Of a stretch of DNA of 64,000 nucleotides, positions 33,650-44,064 are shown one piece after another. Source of the stretch: Ignavibacteria bacterium. GTDB taxonomy: Bacteria > Bacteroidota > Ignavibacteria > Kapaibacteriales > UBA4661. Within the stretch, counting starts at the first letter, position 1. Each line of letters begins with the position of its first letter. The translations under genes were made by a program, and so were the position numbers. The notes beneath the pieces were generated by a model, which saw only the letters and a program-made list of their open reading frames with translations, was not told where the DNA came from and made no database searches. The stretch is from the NCBI GenBank assembly GCA_014654705.1, contig JACVZY010000071.1:93439-157438 (forward strand), given 5' to 3'.

Positions 33650-36600
33650 ATGGATTTCACACAACATCATACCGATACAATTTCTGATATTTCCACGTCC
33701 GATGACGCCCTTCTCGGCGAGTTCTCGCACGTAATTGTGCGCGGTGCGAAGGAACACAACTTGAAAAATGTCAGTGTGGATATTCCCCGCGAACAACTTG
33801 TCGTTATGACGGGGCTTTCGGGTTCGGGTAAGTCCTCACTGGCATTCGATACGATTTATGCTGAAGGACAGCGCCGCTATGTAGAATCGCTTTCGCCTTA
33901 CGCACGGCAGTTCTTGGGCATGATGGAAAAGCCCGATGTGGACGCGATTGACGGTCTTTCGCCTGCCATTTCGATTGAGCAAAAAACAGTCGGCTCCAAT
34001 CCTCGCTCCACCGTCGGCACGGTCACAGAAGTATATGATTATATCAGGCTTCTCTACTCGAAAATTGGTGTTCAGCACTGTGTGGACCATCCCGAAATGA
34101 CGGTAAAAAAACAATCGTTCGACCAGATTGTCGAAAGCATCCTTGCTATTGGCGATGGTGCGCGGGTGCACGTTCTTGCGCCGATTGTGCGCGGACGCAA
34201 AGGTCACTACCGAGAGCAATTCGACCAACTCCGCAAGCAAGGTTTTACCAAAGTGCGTGTAGATGGACGATTGCAGGAAATTACCGAAGGAATGCAGCTT
34301 AGCAGGTATCAGATTCACACGATTGAAGTCGTCATAGACCGCATTGCACTTGCTTCCGACCAAGAATCACGATTGCGCGATTCCTGCGCTCTTGCCATGA
34401 AAATGGGCGAGGGAGTTCTGACGATTTTGACTGAAGAAACCTCGAAATACGAAGAGGGTAAAACCGGTGTTATTGGGCTACCAATGCGCCGCGAACTCTT
34501 TTTTAGCCAATCTAATGCCTGTCCCATTTGCCAGCGCTCCTACGAACCGCTTGCACCGAACGCTTTTTCATTCAATTCTCCCTTCGGGGCTTGTGGTTCT
34601 TGTCAGGGCTTGGGCGAGATTCGTGATTTCAATACTGCTCTTTTCATGCCGGAAAAATCTCTTTCCTTGGCGGATGGTGGTATTGCACCGCTCGGCAGAC
34701 AACGTGATACGTGGCTCTGGCGGCAGGTAGAAGCGGTTTGCAAGCACTTCGAGATTAAACTCTCCACTCCTGTCGGGAAAATTGGCGAAGACCATATGAA
34801 CATTCTCTTGCGTGGTGCCGGAACGCTGCTTTTTTCTGTGAATTATACATTCTCAAGCGGGCGCACCACTACGTACAAGCAGCGCTACACCGGTATCGTG
34901 GCGAATCTGCAAGACCAGTACGACAAAACATCGTCCGCCGCAACTCGTGCGACCATTGAACAATATATGTCCTCCATGCCTTGCCCTACCTGCCATGGCG
35001 GACGATTAAAACCGGAAAGCCTGAATGTTCGTATTGGAGGCAAAAGCATACAGGATATTAGCGAGTTGTCCATTCACGAGGCTTTGTTGCATTTTCGTAG
35101 TCTTTCGCTTACCGAGCGTGAGGAAACAATAGCGCGTTTGATATTGAAAGAAATCACCTCTCGTTTGTCCTTTTTGCAAGAAGTTGGTTTACAGTATTTG
35201 ACGCTGAACCGTGCCGCACGGACACTTTCCGGCGGCGAGGGACAGCGCATACGCCTTGCCTCGCAAATCGGCTCTCAGCTTACGGGCGTGATGTATGTGC
35301 TGGACGAACCAAGCATCGGTCTGCATCAGCACGACAATCGCAAACTCATCGGTTCGCTCAAGCGCCTGCGCGACCTTGGCAATACAGTGATTGTGGTGGA
35401 GCATGACCGTGAAATGATTGAAGAAGCAGATTTCGTGATTGACCTAGGACCTCGCGCGGGCGTACACGGCGGCACAATGATGTTTGCCGGAACGCCGCAT
35501 GAACTCCGACAGCAGCCGGATTCGCTCACAGCAGATTATCTCTCAGGACGCAGAATTATTGCCAGCGACCGCCTGCGACGCACCGGAAGCGGTAAAGAAT
35601 TGGTTCTTGAAAATGCGATTGGGAATAATTTGCAAGATGTTACGCTTCGCATTCCGCTTGAAACCTTTACCTGCATCACCGGCATGAGCGGGAGCGGCAA
35701 ATCCACACTCGTCAACGATACGCTCTATCCGATTCTGTCGCGGCACTTCTATAATTCGCTTGTTGCACCCCTGCAATACGGCAGTATTAAGGGTTTGGAG
35801 CATATTGACAAAGTAATCGAAATTGACCAATCCCCGATTGGGCGTACCCCCCGCTCCAATCCTGCCACCTACACGGGCTTATTTACGCACATCCGCGACC
35901 TGTTTGCGCAGCTTCCCGAATCAAATATTCGAGGCTACAAGCCGGGACGCTTCTCATTTAATGTTGATTCCAGCAAGGGCGGTGGGCGCTGCGAAGCCTG
36001 CGAAGGCGACGGCGTGAAGAAAATCGAAATGAATTTCCTGCCCGACGTGTACGTTCCGTGCGATGTCTGCTCCGGCAGACGCTACAACGCCGAGACGCTC
36101 CAAGTTAAGTACAAAGGCAAGTCCATCGCGGACGTACTGGAAATGACTGTTGATGAGGCGGTTGGCTTTTTTAGAGATATTCCTAAAATTGCGCGGCAAA
36201 TCAACACGTTGCAAGAAGTGGGTTTGGGGTACATCCACATCGGGCAGCAAGCCACAACGCTTTCCGGCGGCGAGGCACAGCGCGTGAAGCTGGCAACGGA
36301 ACTAGCAAAGATTTCCACCGGAAAAACGCTTTATATCTTGGATGAACCAACCACTGGTCTGCATTTTGAGGATGTGAATATTTTGCTGGAGCTCTTGCAG
36401 AAATTGGTGGAAAAGAAAAATACGGTTGTCGTTATTGAGCATAATTTAGACGTTATCAAAACTGCTGATTGGCTGATTGATTTAGGTCCTGAGGGCGGCA
36501 AGGGTGGAGGACGCATTATCGCTGAGGGCGTACCCGAAGTTGTTGCCGAGAGGCGCCTAGAAACGGGTAGCTTCACAGGACTCTATCTGCATGAAGAGTT

Positions 36601-36862
36601 AGAGCGAGATCGCAAATATGCTCAGACCGCCATTACACGCCCCGAAACGCATCGCTCTTACGAGCATTACCCAGACGAACCAAGTGCTGACGCAGATGAT
36701 ACGCCGATTAAGCCGAAGAAAGCCACCAAGCCGAAAGCAAGGACATCCGCGACTGATGGAGCAGAAACCGCAACAACAAAAACGAAGACTGCAAAAAAAG
36801 AAACCGCGAAAGCAAAAGCTGCGAAGCCCAAAGCTGCAAAGCCAAAGGCAAAAAAAATCTAA
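33650..36862 (+). CDS. uvrA: UvrA excinuclease subunit with basic C-terminal tail
   Basis: ATPase that finds damage in nucleotide excision repair and loads UvrB. Both ABC halves are present: Walker [11 protein letters not shown] (~55) and [10 protein letters not shown] (~678), zinc modules [10 protein letters not shown]...[10 protein letters not shown] (~290) and CEACEGDG...[10 protein letters not shown] (~780-806), signatures LSGGEGQR (~527) and LSGGEAQR (~871), and [10 protein letters not shown] / [10 protein letters not shown]. At 1070 residues it exceeds the usual ~940: there is an N-terminal extension of ~25 residues and a tail of about 85 residues rich in Lys, Ala, Thr and Pro ([11 protein letters not shown] at the end) that resembles histone H1-like tails. 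Confidence 0.97.
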
Positions 36863-36890: not shown

Positions 36891-37505
36891 GTGAACCGCA
36901 AGACTCCATATTACCCAAACATTTTCTTTTTTCTACTCTGCCTGTGTGTAAGCATTGATGCGGTGTCGAATACTCTATATGCCCTTTCTGGAGTACCCCT
37001 TCGGGCGGCGGAGACACGAGGCACAACACAAATTCAGGCAGAAGAAGAAAAAATAGAAGCGGCATTTATTTGGCAGTTTTTGCAGTTTATTGAATTTCCG
37101 AAGGTTGCAACGCAAGATGCGTTTGTGGTTGGTTTCATCGGTACAAGCCGCGTAGAGGCATTTTTTGCAGAGATTATCCGCCAAAAGCATCTTCAGGACG
37201 GGCGCACGATTGAACTGCGGCACCTGAACAGCCTCGATGAGATTGCTCGGTGTAATGTTCTTTTTGTTGCTCCGTCAGAAAATGCAAAGCTGACTCAAGT
37301 TTTAAACAAGGCACGTGGTCGTGGTATTTTGACGATTGGGCGGGACGATGAATTCTTATCCAGAGGTGGAATGATGAATTTTTACATTGAAAATACTCGC
37401 ATCCGCTTCGAGTACAACACGGAAGAAATTGTCAGTAGCAAACTGCATTTTAGTTCTCAGCTGCTCCGGCACGGGCGGCAGTATTCAAAAACAGCGAAAG
37501 AATGA
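36891..37505 (+). CDS. YfiR-like periplasmic sensor protein (DUF4154)
   Basis: Exported protein of 204 residues with the YfiR/DUF4154 pattern: AAFIWQFLQFIEFPK, FIGTSRVEAFF, and GGMMNFYIENTRIRFEYN near the end. In Pseudomonas YfiR is a periplasmic, redox-sensitive repressor of the diguanylate cyclase YfiN. Start is a GTG at 36891, 28 bases after uvrA; no ATG fits. A hydrophobic segment (IFFFLLCLCVSI) acts as signal peptide. A CHASE8-type histidine kinase follows by 32 bases, which suggests the two form a sensing pair. Confidence 0.8.
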   Translation: MNRKTPYYPNIFFFLLCLCVSIDAVSNTLYALSGVPLRAAETRGTTQIQAEEEKIEAAFIWQFLQFIEFPKVATQDAFVVGFIGTSRVEAFFAEIIRQKHLQDGRTIELRHLNSLDEIARCNVLFVAPSENAKLTQVLNKARGRGILTIGRDDEFLSRGGMMNFYIENTRIRFEYNTEEIVSSKLHFSSQLLRHGRQYSKTAKE

Positions 37506-37537
37506 ATCCTTACGGATTGTATTTCAAGGAATAGTCT

Positions 37538-39847
37538 ATGAGATGGCTTGCTAACTTATCTATACGTGCAAAACTGCTTGGTATTATCCTTCTGTGTACG
37601 GTTTCGGCACTGGCAATTGGCTTTACGCTCGTAAGCATTGCCAATGTTCGTGCGCTCAAACGAGACATGGTGCGCAGTACGGCAGTTTTAGCACAGGTCA
37701 TCGGCGACAATAATGTTGGTGCGCTGGCATTTGAAGCGCCAAATGAGGTCGAAGAGTCATTAATGAAACTATCGGGTATTGCATCGGTGCACTATGCTTG
37801 CCTTTACGATAAAGAAAACAAACTTTTTGCCGAGTATATTCGCCCAAGTCAAGCAACGAATATCAACCGCGAAGGAACACTTTCTAACGCAATTGTCTTT
37901 GACTCTGTATCGCAGGAGTTTTCCGAATTTCGCAATAACGAGCTTGTTTTGTATCGTCGTGTTTTTGAAAAGAATAATTTCTATGGAACAGTCCTGCTCA
38001 GGGTTTCCACACAAGAACTGGAGGCACGGATACAGAGTTATGGTATTACCATGACCGGTGTGGGCTTGGCAATTATTATTGCTTCGTTGCTTCTGGCGCT
38101 TTGGATGCAACGTATTATATCGGGGCGTATTATGTCGCTCTCGAATTTTATGCAGCATATTTCGCAAAAAGGTGATTTTTCTGAGCGATTTGCGCGGCGT
38201 GGCGGTGATGATGAAATTGGTGCGCTGGCAGACGGTTTCAACCAGCTTTTAGAGCAATTACGGCGGCGCGAAGAGGAGCGCGACAAAGCACGGGCAGCGC
38301 TGGAAGGCGCTCTGCGGGAGGATTTCCGCGAGACGGTGCGCAACCTGCAAAATCTTGTCATTAAGGCATATAAATCGCCAAGCGGTGAGTATTTGGTCTC
38401 GCTCTTTGAGGGTAAAATTGCCATCAATTTTGGCTTAGATACAAATGCTGTGCGCGACAAACCCCTTACAGAGATTTTCGGGCGAAAAATGCAATCTCTT
38501 TACCAACAACACTTTGATTCGGCATTTCAAGGCAAAAATGTTCGTTTTGAATCCGAAATTCATGGTGCGACGTATTTGAATTTTATAGCGCCAATTATTG
38601 ACAACGGCTTAATACGCGAGGTTGTCTGCTCTTCGGTCGATATAACGTCGCAGAAGGAGGCGGAAAACCGCTTGCGCATCAGCGAGCAGCGCTATCGGGC
38701 GCTTATTCAGGGATTGCCGGTGGGTATAGTGCAGTGCGTCAAGGATGGAAGCGGCTTGCGCTTGGAATTTGTCAACGGCGAGTTTGTCAATCTGACAGGG
38801 TACTCAATGGAAATGTTCGCTGAGATGCAGCACAGCACGCAAATCCGCCTTCCGATGCACGATGATGACCGCACAAAAGCTGAAATGGAATGGAATACGT
38901 GGTTGGAGAATGATGCCGATATTTTGCTGCACCGCTCCTACCGCCTGCGTATTGTCAAGGACAGCTCGCCACGCCGCACACCGGAGTACCGTTGGTTCGA
39001 CGACTACACAACCAAACTCCGGCTTGATTCCGGCGAAATTATTATTATTCAAGCACTGTTGGATATTGACGAGAAAAAACAATCCGAAGTACAACTGCAA
39101 ATTTCTCTTGATAAAGAGCGCCAAGTAAACGAACTGAAAACACGCTTTGTTAGTACGGTATCACACGAATTCCGAACGCCGCTTGCCGGTATGCTCCTTT
39201 CGGTTGATCTGCTCACACGCTATTTCGACCGTATTCCTGCCGAAAAGCGTTTGGATGAGTTACAAAAAATCCGACTTCGCATCAATGAACTAACGGACTT
39301 GATGAACGACTTCCTTGCTCAGAGCGAGTCGCAGTCGGCTGTCGGGCGTTTCAAGCCGACGGTGATGGATGTAGGCGACCTTTGCAAGAATCTTATTGCT
39401 GAAATGGAATTTATCGCCTCGGCAACCTCCCGCTCACGCGTACAGCGTCATATCAACGTCCGCGAGGCATATATCAACGGCGACGTAAAGCTCTTGCGCT
39501 ATATCATTCGTAATTTACTTGCCAACGCTATCAAGTATTCACCGAAGCAGTCGCCCGTAATTGTGGATGTCTATTGTGAGCCAGAGTGGGTGGTGATTTC
39601 GGTCAGTGATAATGGTATCGGTATTCCCGAAAAGGATATGGAGAAACTCTTTACACCATTCTTCCGTGCCTCGAATACAACCACTATTTCCGGTACGGGC
39701 GTTGGGCTTTCGATTGTAAAAGAATTTATCGACGTGCATGGTGGCACAATTACGGTACAATCCCGTCAAAATGAAGGCTCTATCTTCATTGTACGCCTCC
39801 CACTTATCAATAAACCCGCAAATGAACTGCAAATAGCGCTGAATTAG
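37538..39847 (+). CDS. CHASE8-HAMP-PAS sensor histidine kinase
   Basis: Membrane sensor kinase of 769 residues. TM1 at ~10-32, a periplasmic domain of YfiN/CHASE8 type (DNNVGALAFEAPNEVEESLMKLSGIASVHYACLYD-like region) at ~35-165, TM2 at ~170-190, HAMP at ~190-245 and a short coiled coil. Two PAS domains follow (about 265-375 and 385-510, the second with EYRWFDDYTTKL), then HisKA with STVSHEFRTPLAG (His near residue 542) and the ATPase with NLLANAIKYSPK, DNGIGIPEKD and GTGVGLSIVKE. No response regulator gene is adjacent. AAGGA precedes the ATG. Confidence 0.9.
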   Translation: MRWLANLSIRAKLLGIILLCTVSALAIGFTLVSIANVRALKRDMVRSTAVLAQVIGDNNVGALAFEAPNEVEESLMKLSGIASVHYACLYDKENKLFAEYIRPSQATNINREGTLSNAIVFDSVSQEFSEFRNNELVLYRRVFEKNNFYGTVLLRVSTQELEARIQSYGITMTGVGLAIIIASLLLALWMQRIISGRIMSLSNFMQHISQKGDFSERFARRGGDDEIGALADGFNQLLEQLRRREEERDKARAALEGALREDFRETVRNLQNLVIKAYKSPSGEYLVSLFEGKIAINFGLDTNAVRDKPLTEIFGRKMQSLYQQHFDSAFQGKNVRFESEIHGATYLNFIAPIIDNGLIREVVCSSVDITSQKEAENRLRISEQRYRALIQGLPVGIVQCVKDGSGLRLEFVNGEFVNLTGYSMEMFAEMQHSTQIRLPMHDDDRTKAEMEWNTWLENDADILLHRSYRLRIVKDSSPRRTPEYRWFDDYTTKLRLDSGEIIIIQALLDIDEKKQSEVQLQISLDKERQVNELKTRFVSTVSHEFRTPLAGMLLSVDLLTRYFDRIPAEKRLDELQKIRLRINELTDLMNDFLAQSESQSAVGRFKPTVMDVGDLCKNLIAEMEFIASATSRSRVQRHINVREAYINGDVKLLRYIIRNLLANAIKYSPKQSPVIVDVYCEPEWVVISVSDNGIGIPEKDMEKLFTPFFRASNTTTISGTGVGLSIVKEFIDVHGGTITVQSRQNEGSIFIVRLPLINKPANELQIALN

Positions 39848-39852
39848 CCCTT

Positions 39853-40608
39853 ATGCTACCTGATGATGACAATACCGTACTGACGGCAAAAACTCTGCTT
39901 GAGCATTTGCATACCCTTGCAAACCCGCATAATCAAGCGGGTATGGCACGATTTGGTATTAACACCCGCCAAGCACTCGGAATTTCGATACCGATACTGC
40001 GCGATATTGCCAAAAGCATAAAAGCCGAGGCAAAGAAAGGTAAACTTAATCGTCACGCACTTGCACAAGACCTATGGGAAAGCGGCATACACGAAGGGCG
40101 TTTGCTGGCAATCCTTACCGAAGACCCGAAAGTAATGACCGAAGCGCAAGTAGAATCGTGGGTACGAGATGTGGATTCGTGGGATATCTGCGACCAATTG
40201 TGCGGCAATCTTCTTTGCAAAATTCCCTTTGCGGAAAAACGCATGTTGGCGTGGTGTGCCGACGAAGCAGAATTTGTACGACGTGTGGGGATTGTGATGA
40301 TAGCACAATTTGCCGTTCATGACAAGAAAGCCGACGATGGGCGGTTTGAACCATTTTTTCCACTCTTGGAACAGTATGCCTACGACGAGCGCAATTTTGT
40401 AAAAAAAGCTGTCAATTGGTCCCTGAGGCAACTTGGCAAGCGAAGTGCCGTTCTTTTGGAACAAGCAACTGCCTGTGCTGAACGCATAAAAGCACAAGGT
40501 ACGTCCAACGCACGGTGGATAGCCGCCGATGCTCTGCGCGAATTTGCAAAACTGCCGCCGGATTACTTCACCCAGAAGAAAAGCGTACTCAAGCGGTCAA
40601 TCAAGTAG
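39853..40608 (+). CDS. AlkD-like DNA alkylation repair protein
   Basis: Predicted HEAT-repeat DNA glycosylase for alkylated bases, 251 residues. It shows the AlkD pattern: ARFGINTRQALGISIPILRDIAK near the N-terminus, WVRDVDSWDICDQLCGNL carrying the conserved Trp/Asp, and RNFVKKAVNWSLRQLGKR with a conserved Trp/Arg. Only 5 bases separate it from the kinase stop, so it is part of the same transcript, although no functional link is evident beyond DNA repair with nearby uvrA. A hairpin overlaps its stop codon. Confidence 0.88.
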   Translation: MLPDDDNTVLTAKTLLEHLHTLANPHNQAGMARFGINTRQALGISIPILRDIAKSIKAEAKKGKLNRHALAQDLWESGIHEGRLLAILTEDPKVMTEAQVESWVRDVDSWDICDQLCGNLLCKIPFAEKRMLAWCADEAEFVRRVGIVMIAQFAVHDKKADDGRFEPFFPLLEQYAYDERNFVKKAVNWSLRQLGKRSAVLLEQATACAERIKAQGTSNARWIAADALREFAKLPPDYFTQKKSVLKRSIK

Positions 40609-41241: not shown

Positions 41242-44064
41242 TCAATGACGAATAATCATCGACCCCTGCGCTTGCAGTCCTTCAGCTTCGATGCGATACA
41301 CATACATTCCAGCGGGAATATTGCCTGTCGGTATAATGAAGAGCTGCTCTCCTGCTGTCATAGTTGCCTCCAGAGGCGTTCCGACGCTCTGTCCCAGTGT
41401 ATTCCATAGAGTGAGTGTCACGCGAGTGCTACGCGGCAGGAAAAAGGGGATTGTTACATCCGTGCGCGAAGCCGGGTTGGGGTAGCTTTGTCCAAGCACA
41501 ATCATTGGCGATTCGGCATTAAAGCGGCGGGTTTGTGTAGGTAGATTGGTCGTAAAGAAGCCGTTGCCATGCGTTGCCACCGCCACAAAACCATCTTTTG
41601 AGCGAGCATCTATCATACGCACATCTGCCATGCCAATAGTGTTTGCACCTTCGCGCACCCAGCGTGTTGCGGAGCCGTTGAGTCGGTCGGTCGAAAAAAG
41701 TCCGCTTGATGTTCCGGCAAAGTACCATACTTTCCCGCCGGCATACACAACTTTTACCCATGCCACCGATGGACCACCACCCACGCCACTCATGGTTTCT
41801 TCAAGATTGCCCCCCACAGCCGACCATGTTTTACCGCCATCTATGGTGGAGAAAATACTTTGAACATTGTAGCTTGAAAAGACGGCAATCGCCCAATCAG
41901 CGTTGGTGGGGTCGAGTGCCACGCATGACACACGCCCGCTTGGAAAACTGCCGCCGCTCACGTTAACAAGTTTTCGTGAGGAGTCTGCTGCCGTAGGATT
42001 GTCCATACGATAGACACGCCCGCGAGACGTACCCACATAGACCACATTGGCGGGCTTTTCAGCCACTGCAACACTTGTAATAATCTCATTTGTTCCTACT
42101 GAGCCAATATTTTTCCATGCCGCTTGTAGCTGTGATGTGTTGAACGTCGTTACGTCCGGATTTCGCCACAGTGCTGTGCCGCCCGCGAGGTACATCGTTT
42201 GCTGGTTATTCGGGTCAAGCACGTACGGATTATCAAGAAAAAAGCGCTGAAAGGTGCTTGCGGAAGGACTAATCCGCACCAAATTTACTCGTCGCCCGCG
42301 CCCGTCAAACTCAAAACGATTCATGGAAGCATACTGCGACGAGGCGTAATAAAATCGACCACTATCGGCAATAGCGCAAAATGTCCCGTCTCCTAGGTTG
42401 ATAAGTTTGCCAGTAGCGTCGTTGCGAGTAACCATGCGTGTTCCATTGTCCTGCAAACCACCGATGATCGTCTCGCTATTCGCCGTAAAATGGTCAATGG
42501 CAAGAGAGTAAAACTGCGTCGTAATATAGTTTGTGTTGAGCGAAGTATAGCGCACGGGCATAGCGGTGCAGTTATCCGTGCGATAGATGCCGCCATCATT
42601 GACAACAAACATGACTTTGGGATTAGAAGGCAAAAAAGCAAAATCGTGATGGTCAGCCCACGATTGCGTGGGGGGTGTTGGAATGTCAATCTCAGTGGCA
42701 TACGAGGAAATAATGGAGGTCGTTTCGCGGTATCGGAAGTTATAGGGATTGCTATAGGCATACACACCACCGGCGATGACAAAGAGTGGGTCATCAGGCT
42801 TGACATTAAGCGCCATACAATAGCCGGTTTGCGAGGAAAAATCCTGTGGAAATGTTGTTGTGTAATCCGTCCACGAGCCACCTGATGCGCCCGCGCCATT
42901 ACCCGATAAATACATATAGCGCAATAATCCAGCTTTTACGCCGCTTGGTGTGCGCACATCGCGGAGGACGTACACCATATTGCTATCGCTTGGTGCAGTA
43001 GCCAGCACCATTCGGGCGACTTGAACGGAAGATGTTTGTCCTGCGGTCGTAGGCGGAGAAATATTTGTCCAGTTTCTGCCGTTGAGAGAGCGCCACACAC
43101 CGCTTTGCGCCGCAAATCCGGGAATTACGCCGTTAAAATCCATTTCGCTGAGTGCCGCATAGACAACGCCATTTGAGGCGATTGCCACGTCGGTATAGTA
43201 GGCGGCATTGCTCATGGTTGCGGACATATTACCGAGTACAGGTTCCCACGAATCGCCGCCGTCATTTGAACGCATGATAGCCCCCGTAATAGCGGCATAG
43301 AGAATATCCTGATTGAGCGTAGTGTTATCAATGACAATACGAATCACGGTACTCCATGGAGAAGCGATTTGAGAAGCGCGTGTCAGCAGGGTTGGTGTGG
43401 TCGCAGGCAAGCTGCGCCACGTCCGTCCGCCGTCCACTGATTTGTAAAGCCCTGTTCCGAAAAAGGAAGTATAGACTTCACCTGTGCCATAGTACCAGAC
43501 GTTGCGCTTTCCGGGACGCTTATCTTGAACAATACAGGAGATGTTGCTGCCGCCATCCGGCGTAACAACTTTGCTCCACGACGCACCGCCGTTTTCTGTC
43601 CGCCATAAGCCACCCGATACGCTGCCTGCCAGCATTACACGCTCGTTGTCGGCATCAATTGCCAGTGAGCGAGTGCGCCCGCCTGTGCCTGTGGGTCCTT
43701 TGCTTGTCCAATCAAACGCCTGCAGTATGGAGTTGTTTTTCTGTTGCCCTGCCCCTTGTTCACGCGAGGGTAGAGTGCTCGTAAAGATACGCTCTCGCAT
43801 GAGGGCATCGTGTGGTATCTGTCCCGTAGCGGGGTCGGCGAGGCGGGATAGCTCGTATTTGAGACGCTCGGATACGCTTTCCTTTTCGTCCCATTCCTCG
43901 CTAAATCTATCTTCATTGTGAACACCTTTTTCGTCGGCTGTTGCGACCAGTTCCGAATTTGATTGCGAAGAGAAGATAGGCTGCTCATCAAGCGTCCTAT
44001 ACACAAGCGCTCCGCCACAGAAAAAAACGGCGAGAGCAAGTCCAAGAATCACGAAGTATCGCAT
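41242..44064 (-). CDS. Secreted BNR/sortilin-like repeat protein, T9SS cargo
   Basis: Large exported protein of 940 residues. An N-terminal hydrophobic anchor or signal (FVILGLALAVFFCGGALVY) is followed by an acidic, charged spacer and a beta-propeller region with Asp-box/BNR repeats: TENGGASW, SVDGGRTW, SNDGGDSW and TIDGGKTW. Such Vps10/sortilin-like folds occur in Bacteroidota surface proteins. The last ~80 residues are a type A T9SS sorting domain (YPNPASRTDVTIPF, TLTLWNTLGQ, PAGMYVYRIEAEG). The function of the propeller is unknown; adhesion or glycan binding is possible. Confidence 0.85.
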   Translation of the reverse strand: MRYFVILGLALAVFFCGGALVYRTLDEQPIFSSQSNSELVATADEKGVHNEDRFSEEWDEKESVSERLKYELSRLADPATGQIPHDALMRERIFTSTLPSREQGAGQQKNNSILQAFDWTSKGPTGTGGRTRSLAIDADNERVMLAGSVSGGLWRTENGGASWSKVVTPDGGSNISCIVQDKRPGKRNVWYYGTGEVYTSFFGTGLYKSVDGGRTWRSLPATTPTLLTRASQIASPWSTVIRIVIDNTTLNQDILYAAITGAIMRSNDGGDSWEPVLGNMSATMSNAAYYTDVAIASNGVVYAALSEMDFNGVIPGFAAQSGVWRSLNGRNWTNISPPTTAGQTSSVQVARMVLATAPSDSNMVYVLRDVRTPSGVKAGLLRYMYLSGNGAGASGGSWTDYTTTFPQDFSSQTGYCMALNVKPDDPLFVIAGGVYAYSNPYNFRYRETTSIISSYATEIDIPTPPTQSWADHHDFAFLPSNPKVMFVVNDGGIYRTDNCTAMPVRYTSLNTNYITTQFYSLAIDHFTANSETIIGGLQDNGTRMVTRNDATGKLINLGDGTFCAIADSGRFYYASSQYASMNRFEFDGRGRRVNLVRISPSASTFQRFFLDNPYVLDPNNQQTMYLAGGTALWRNPDVTTFNTSQLQAAWKNIGSVGTNEIITSVAVAEKPANVVYVGTSRGRVYRMDNPTAADSSRKLVNVSGGSFPSGRVSCVALDPTNADWAIAVFSSYNVQSIFSTIDGGKTWSAVGGNLEETMSGVGGGPSVAWVKVVYAGGKVWYFAGTSSGLFSTDRLNGSATRWVREGANTIGMADVRMIDARSKDGFVAVATHGNGFFTTNLPTQTRRFNAESPMIVLGQSYPNPASRTDVTIPFFLPRSTRVTLTLWNTLGQSVGTPLEATMTAGEQLFIIPTGNIPAGMYVYRIEAEGLQAQGSMIIRH

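Follow-up and report, generated by a model that had tools for sequence, protein, structure and literature searches.

The yfiR–kinase pair in the window

The window analysed here, a stretch of 64,000 nucleotides from the genome of an Ignavibacteria bacterium (assembly GCA_014654705.1, contig JACVZY010000071.1, positions 93,439 to 157,438 of the forward strand), encodes a YfiR-like protein and, 32 bases downstream on the same + strand, a sensor histidine kinase (Table 1). An earlier note, made from the sequence alone, had described an exported YfiR/DUF4154 protein followed by a kinase with a transmembrane (TM)-CHASE8-TM-HAMP front end and a PAS-PAS-HisKA-HATPase output, and had proposed that an input unit known from a GGDEF protein here drives a histidine kinase. 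The first product was indeed a YfiR: residues 54–194 matched Pfam DUF4154 with an E value of 1.7e-33 (116.2 bits against a cut-off of 24.9), and the only hydrophobic stretch, at the N-terminus, is a probable signal peptide. The front end of the kinase was likewise as described, with a CHASE8 match above its cut-off, hydrophobic stretches on both sides of it (residues 4–34 and 170–188, by hydropathy) and a HAMP linker. The pair resembles the two NCBIfam families NF053591 (YfiR_like_TOL0243) and NF053592 (HK_near_YfiR_like) in its near full-length matches, 112.4 bits for YfiR and 148.6 bits over residues 8–242 for the kinase, and in that the kinase is encoded beside a YfiR-like gene; it differs in that both scores lie under the curated cut-offs (125 and 194, respectively).

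The HAMP, HisKA and HATPase_c domains and one PAS_8 unit of the kinase all scored above their Pfam cut-offs. The other PAS-like unit came from a predicted model only: residues 246–530, modelled at a modest mean predicted local distance difference test (pLDDT) score of 67, contained two PAS-like units, and the best matches in a fold search were tandem LOV-PAS and FixL PAS proteins. An inactive kinase was considered and rejected, as the H, N, G1 and G2 motifs look intact by eye in the translation.

The model of the sensor region placed an alpha/beta domain of the Cache/PDC-like type between two long helices, TM1 and TM2; it too was modest (mean pLDDT 65.4, 7 sequences). Its best solved fold matches were extracellular kinase domains such as that of WalK (4ywz_B: Z 11.2, root-mean-square deviation 3.2, 130 aligned residues), and further matches included a WalK-YycH model, CitA with citrate and DctB with succinate. 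No solved structure named CHASE8 or YfiN appeared among the 50 matches listed in either fold search, and when solved structures were searched with a sequence profile of the sensor region, the matches were centred on TM2-HAMP. The predicted fold agrees with the placing of CHASE8 in a CACHE-like clan (PMC8846402). We rejected a misassigned periplasmic domain, given the CHASE8 match over its cut-off and the Cache/PDC-like predicted fold; the earlier note had made its reading depend on this domain folding as CHASE8.

Table 1. Features of the yfiR–kinase locus, in window coordinates
Feature	Position	Strand	Basis and remarks
uvrA	33650-36862	+	Pfam UvrA domains; 28 bases upstream of yfiR
YfiR/DUF4154 periplasmic protein	36891-37505	+	ORF (open reading frame), GTG start, 204 aa
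YfiR N-terminal hydrophobic stretch, residues 8-26	36912-36968	+	Hydropathy; probable signal peptide
YfiR Cys121	37251-37253	+	Only Cys beyond the N-terminal hydrophobic stretch; invariant in alignments
YfiR Phe173-Glu174	37407-37412	+	Aligned with P. aeruginosa YfiR Phe162-Glu163
Sensor histidine kinase	37538-39847	+	ORF, ATG start, 769 aa; Pfam
CHASE8 periplasmic sensor, kinase residues 41-126	37658-37915	+	Pfam E 1.9e-10, 41.3 bits against a cut-off of 27
GALAF, kinase residues 61-65	37718-37732	+	Alignment with AAVVF of E. coli DgcN/YfiN
Second TM helix, kinase residues 170-188	38045-38101	+	Hydropathy
HAMP linker, kinase residues 194-242	38117-38263	+	Pfam 8.4e-07
First PAS-like unit, kinase residues ~273-368	38354-38641	+	Predicted model and fold search; missed by Pfam
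Second PAS unit, kinase residues ~397-509	38726-39064	+	Pfam PAS_8 at 384-446; predicted model
HisKA phospho-acceptor, kinase residues 534-598	39137-39331	+	Pfam 3.7e-11
His543 within SHEFRTPL of HisKA	39164-39166	+	Sequence
HATPase_c catalytic domain, kinase residues 648-756	39479-39805	+	Pfam 3.6e-32
DNA alkylation repair protein	39853-40608	+	Pfam 6e-42; 5 bases downstream of the kinase

Yfi cores with histidine kinase, methyl-accepting chemotaxis protein (MCP) or GGDEF-EAL outputs were reported by Malone et al. in 2012 (PMC3375315). The window pair has the core that they described, a YfiR and a TM-PAS/CHASE8-TM-HAMP receptor encoded together, and is like their modular YfiR-YfiN[PAS/HAMP] kind in combining a periplasmic YfiR gene with such a receptor, in carrying a kinase for GGDEF, in having no YfiB and in its conserved hydrophobic interface residues. 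It is unlike that kind in its two PAS units, in having no response regulator nearby and in its fixed place after uvrA. The pair is not a new kind of system: the general idea was published in 2012 (PMC3375315), and both partners are modelled in NCBIfam. As in YfiBNR of Pseudomonas aeruginosa and YfiR-DgcN-YfiB of Escherichia coli, a DUF4154 protein is encoded directly before a CHASE8-HAMP inner-membrane receptor, and the pair has an AAVVF-like motif and equivalents of Phe162/Glu163. Unlike YfiBNR, it has HisKA and HATPase_c instead of a GGDEF output, lacks three of the four YfiR cysteines and has no yfiB (an OmpA/Pal-like lipoprotein gene) beside it in the flanks, to which the search was confined and which hold uvrA and an alkylation repair gene.

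Conservation of the pair and YfiR neighbours in the phylum

A search for relatives covered 61 genomes, of which 12 had a match to the window YfiR; nine of these carried it at 42% identity or more: the window genome itself, seven genomes from its genus and G206 from its family. G205, the tenth genome of the family and 70% complete, gave no match. A kinase ortholog accompanied the YfiR ortholog in 9 out of 9 family genomes and was adjacent to it in 7. In the other two, G202 and G203, the gene after yfiR encodes a SpoU methylase, and another contig carries the kinase ortholog (~61% identical); such co-occurrence after separation is better evidence of a working pair than adjacency alone. The family orthologs scored at least 137 bits against the kinase-sensor profile NF053592, save that of G203 with its split match (75 and 70 bits), and the best match in G205 reached 89 bits. 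Nonsynonymous divergence (dN) was low in yfiR and the kinase gene, with synonymous sites saturated in most comparisons.

We then considered YfiR genes in a phylum sample of 198 genomes, 26 of which held 37 DUF4154 matches, and took the neighbourhoods of all 37. Here and in the family, genes were called with a simple longest-ORF caller, by which start positions are approximate, and the Pfam scan covered part of the neighbours, with the neighbourhood of L113 (G014:C88) read separately. A histidine kinase was adjacent to YfiR at 18 of the 37 loci and fused to it at 4, giving 22 in total; for two of the adjacent kinases (L052 and L053) the identification comes solely from the kinase-sensor profile score and kinase motifs, and at L106 the kinase gene precedes yfiR. 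Besides the TonB-dependent receptor, the kinase is the commonest type of YfiR neighbour found in the phylum, and the neighbours scanned included no GGDEF protein. Since a kinase-output variant was published in 2012 (PMC3375315) and a kinase accompanies so many phylum YfiR genes, the YfiR–kinase pair is no oddity. The adjacency in relatives on which the earlier note had staked its reading thus held in the family and in the phylum at large. Conversely, 13 of the 14 NF053592 matches above 100 bits adjoin a YfiR gene, and the curated cut-off of that model was exceeded in just 1 of the 198 genomes. At three more loci we found a CHASE8-type receptor and saw no kinase: an MCP at L041 and two receptors that a contig edge truncates ahead of any output domain (L056 and L112).

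The window genome itself has five CHASE8 matches and four DUF4154 matches, one of the latter under its cut-off, and two of the four YfiR genes directly precede a CHASE8 protein, a pairing above chance. One of these loci, L041 (11806–16402, contig C95), reads TonB-dependent receptor, YfiR, CHASE8-HAMP-MCP, and connects the same module to a chemotaxis-type output. As the earlier note had it, no response regulator is adjacent to the kinase: 132 receiver-domain matches were found genome-wide and none within the window. The genome holds a single GGDEF match (contig C3:68620–69036, 63.7 bits, within a 975-aa frame), exactly one occurs in each of the 16 genomes of its order in the phylum sample, its own included, and 109 of the 198 sampled genomes have a GGDEF match. 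With so many receiver domains and a single GGDEF match, a phosphorelay output fits this genome; a cyclic di-GMP (c-di-GMP) output would be unusual for it.

Proposed interface and co-evolution

YfiR has been proposed to bind the AAVVF motif in the YfiN PAS domain, with YfiR Phe162 central (PMC3375315), and Phe162-Glu163 belong to the proposed YfiN-binding patch of P. aeruginosa YfiR (PMC4655355, PMC3375315). In our alignments the AAVVF of E. coli DgcN falls on GALAF in the window kinase, similar and not identical, with the Phe invariant in 11 out of 11 sequences and in 15 out of 15 of a second alignment; GALAF thus supplies the AAVVF-type motif of the Malone 2012 core. Phe162/Glu163 fall on window Phe173/Glu174 (residue numbers by our own count), as judged from a profile alignment to the solved YfiR and an alignment with E. 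coli YfiR. HHalign comparisons of the family profiles with the single E. coli proteins were weak (28.7% and 56% probability).

YfiR and the kinase appear to evolve together, and in a sensor-specific manner. Over 29 YfiR–kinase pairs, which took in 17 of the 18 adjacent phylum kinases (L113 was left out, as were the fusions), YfiR distances correlated with those of the first 190 kinase residues at r 0.73 (p 0.0002) and with those of the catalytic core at r 0.29 (p 0.003); the core of the Indioceanicola kinase was located by a partial match alone. With one pair per clade (n=17; this set was our choice and dropped 12 of the 29 pairs as near relatives), the sensor value was 0.56 (Mantel p 0.0004), the core value 0.09 (p 0.20) and the partial r 0.56. 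A narrower run that required a recognised H box, and so lost 5 of 28 pairs, gave 0.75 versus 0.51 for 23 pairs and 0.45 versus 0.03 for 12; widening to 28 pairs plus G023, hence 29, raised the one-per-clade sensor value to 0.56 and left the all-pairs result alike. Shared ancestry by itself should link YfiR as strongly to the catalytic core as to the sensor region, unless catalytic cores had been swapped by recombination. Chance adjacency was rejected, as the pair is kept in the family and found across phyla and its co-evolution is sensor-specific.

Drift within an operon after uvrA could also have made the two genes neighbours, with YfiR acting on another CHASE8 protein (for example, the MCP) and the kinase working alone. 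YfiR does stay by uvrA in G202 and G203 while the kinase lies elsewhere, and the five CHASE8 matches of the window genome offer other partners; but the kinase ortholog in every YfiR genome of the family, the sensor-specific co-evolution over 29 pairs and the adjacency of kinases in distant lineages make this account highly improbable. We also think it distinctly unlikely that CHASE8 senses a small molecule directly, like Cache domains, with YfiR as a minor modulator. The ligand-bound CitA and DctB structures among the fold matches speak for such sensing, yet the periplasmic part was the least conserved kinase region in 7 out of 8 family comparisons (40–76% identity), which ill suits a strictly conserved pocket, and GALAF and the co-evolution favour a protein partner.

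Probable control of the kinase, TonB-dependent receptors and fusions

The pair is real and conserved, as its genes, domains, conservation and co-evolution show. We consider it probable that YfiR gates the sensor histidine kinase and that the pair is a divergent example of the modular YfiR-YfiN[PAS/HAMP] kind. Given the conserved pairing and the apparent joint evolution, the proposal of the earlier note, a histidine kinase driven by this input unit, is the best reading; YfiR probably controls the kinase and, by analogy with YfiN, would inhibit it. To judge from its N-terminus and family, YfiR would be exported to the periplasm. There a hydrophobic patch around Phe173/Glu174 may bind CHASE8 at or near GALAF, as the motif alignment and co-evolution suggest. 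Once bound, YfiR would lock the receptor into a single signalling state, which by analogy with YfiN is most likely the off state; by the same analogy an envelope event that removes YfiR would flip TM2-HAMP. The signal could pass through the two PAS units to HisKA/HATPase, in keeping with the domains seen, and then to an unlinked response regulator.

A TonB-dependent receptor gene was adjacent to YfiR or one ORF away at 27 of the 37 phylum loci (22 recognised by Pfam and 5 by similarity), which suggests an outer-membrane input in the place that YfiB holds in YfiBNR. Receptor and kinase occurred together at 20 loci, and only two kinase-linked cases lacked the receptor, the window pair and L058. 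The four YfiR–kinase fusions (L102–L105, in G070, G051, G014 and G156) all sit behind a TonB-dependent receptor gene and read YfiR, a coiled-coil-like stretch (by eye), TM, HisKA and HATPase_c, with a PAS domain in three and a CHASE8 match in none. Fusions are a classical hint that the separate proteins cooperate, and these suggest that YfiR could replace the sensor domain. At L111 (5326–6630), a single chain carries a carboxypeptidase-regulatory domain, a TonB C-terminal domain and DUF4154, and the next gene encodes a TonB-dependent receptor, an arrangement that suggests a direct TonB-YfiR link.

A plasmid tblastn search with one phylum YfiR as query gave five records. Three of these, from Sphingobium indicum pSRL1, Sphingobium sp. 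TomTYG65 and Indioceanicola profundi (alphaproteobacterial), had the order receptor, YfiR, CHASE8 hybrid kinase, and one Pseudoalteromonas record had receptor, YfiR, CHASE8-HAMP-GGDEF-EAL; for Pseudoalteromonas sp. HL-AS1, an incomplete gene table, its DNA unscanned, shows neither a receptor nor an output gene next to yfiR. In a Nitrospinia metagenome-assembled genome, YfiR lies directly behind a gene that reads by eye as a TonB-dependent receptor. Together, the order in the plasmid records and this genome points to a triad with exchangeable output in more than one phylum.

The fusions also bear on the sign of control, since YfiR might be an activating or ligand-binding co-receptor of the kinase and not a repressor. 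In them YfiR stands on a coiled-coil-like stretch, a TM helix and a kinase, with no CHASE8 to repress, and in the fold search the sensor region matched WalK extracellular domains best, the WalK-YycH model included. WalK is controlled by accessory proteins, its extracytoplasmic partners YycH and YycI, and the window kinase is like it in having a PDC/Cache-like extracellular domain by fold match; YycH and YycI are not known to be related to YfiR, and the WalK-YycH/YycI system comes from another phylum. In the studied P. aeruginosa pair, however, YfiR represses YfiN (PMC4655355, PMC3375315), and we hold the co-receptor account to be rather unlikely.

Several observations weigh against a YfiR-gated kinase. 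No YfiB or TonB-dependent receptor is linked to the window pair, and yfiR is split from the kinase in G202 and G203. At 12 of the 37 phylum YfiR genes, neither a CHASE8-type receptor nor a kinase was seen directly beside; among these, L097 and L098, which belong to one family, have a periplasmic binding protein (Peripla_BP_2) gene after yfiR, and a like-sized, unscanned gene follows yfiR at L099, of the same family. L097 has two YfiR genes in tandem, and at L114 an unscanned frame with an ATPase-like motif lies two genes from yfiR. Three adjacent kinases had no CHASE8 match at 1e-3 (L058, L110 and L115), and in six more the match was under the cut-off (L060, L061, L066, L106, L108 and L113). 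G058 has a kinase-sensor match of 143.7 bits and no DUF4154 match in its genome. The correlation of YfiR with the catalytic core over 29 pairs, weaker than that with the sensor, was significant all the same, and the four fusions, lacking CHASE8, indicate that CHASE8 binding is not the sole mode of YfiR use. Furthermore, P. aeruginosa YfiR has the cysteine pairs Cys71-Cys110 and Cys145-Cys152 (PMC4655355); three of the four cysteines behind its redox model have no counterpart in the window YfiR, where only Cys121 is kept, aligned with Cys110, so that the published redox mode cannot operate there as such.

The surroundings of the pair are themselves conserved. The uvrA gene lies upstream of yfiR in 8 of the 9 family genomes (the G200 contig starts ~160 bases before yfiR), the order is kept even where the kinase lies elsewhere, and in several genomes the uvrA stop overlaps the apparent yfiR start. 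An alkylation repair gene follows the kinase in 4 of the 9, the window included; we do not take this neighbour to belong to the system. A functional link of the pair with uvrA or DNA repair was considered and not adopted: the synteny is real, yet nothing seen points to a shared function. Further downstream, a GIY-YIG/UVR nuclease is encoded in G200 and G204, and SpoU then MutS in G202. In the window, 41242–44064 encodes a 940-aa protein whose sortilin/BNR-like matches and type IX secretion sorting tail all fall slightly short of the Pfam cut-off.

The family also has a second YfiR (YfiR2), 20–24% identical to the first and encoded directly before a TonB-dependent receptor gene in 8 of the 9 genomes (not G200); the receptor was identified by Pfam in the window genome only and by similarity in the others. 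The nearest CHASE8 match to the YfiR2 locus lies ~27 kb off in the window genome; for most others only short flanks were covered. In G206 (L158:574–7239), one gene run encodes a CHASE8-HAMP-SpoIIE phosphatase, which extends the kinds of output carried by CHASE8 receptors, together with another YfiR, a TonB-dependent receptor and an amine oxidase. The YfiR2-receptor operon, apart from the uvrA-yfiR-kinase locus, is the basis of a joint reading that we put forward tentatively, as possible and no likelier than that. The TonB-dependent receptor would replace YfiB, and substrate binding or transport would capture or release YfiR and so switch the kinase (or MCP, SpoIIE or GGDEF-EAL protein); in the Kapabacteria family the relay would be split, with YfiR2 at the receptor and the other YfiR at the kinase after uvrA, the two exchanging in trans.

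In the literature searched (open-licence papers, with table S4 of PMC3375315 outside), we found no description of the receptor-YfiR link, of YfiR–kinase fusions without CHASE8, or of the family's receptor-free pair after uvrA with its separate YfiR2-receptor operon. The word 'TonB' is absent from the main text of PMC3375315, and Kapabacteria are not named in the sections covered, which do not include table S4. The passages of PMC2837407 that were consulted name neither a kinase nor TonB, and those of PMC9611778 deal with other matters. The receptor link and the fusions matter more than the window pair itself. The pair is a clear example, from a little-studied lineage, in support of the view that YfiR serves CHASE8 receptors generally as a plug-in regulator, beyond c-di-GMP. 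The receptor gene beside most phylum yfiR genes suggests, in a way that can be tested, what may feed YfiR in the absence of YfiB, and the fusions indicate that YfiR itself can be the sensor part of a kinase.

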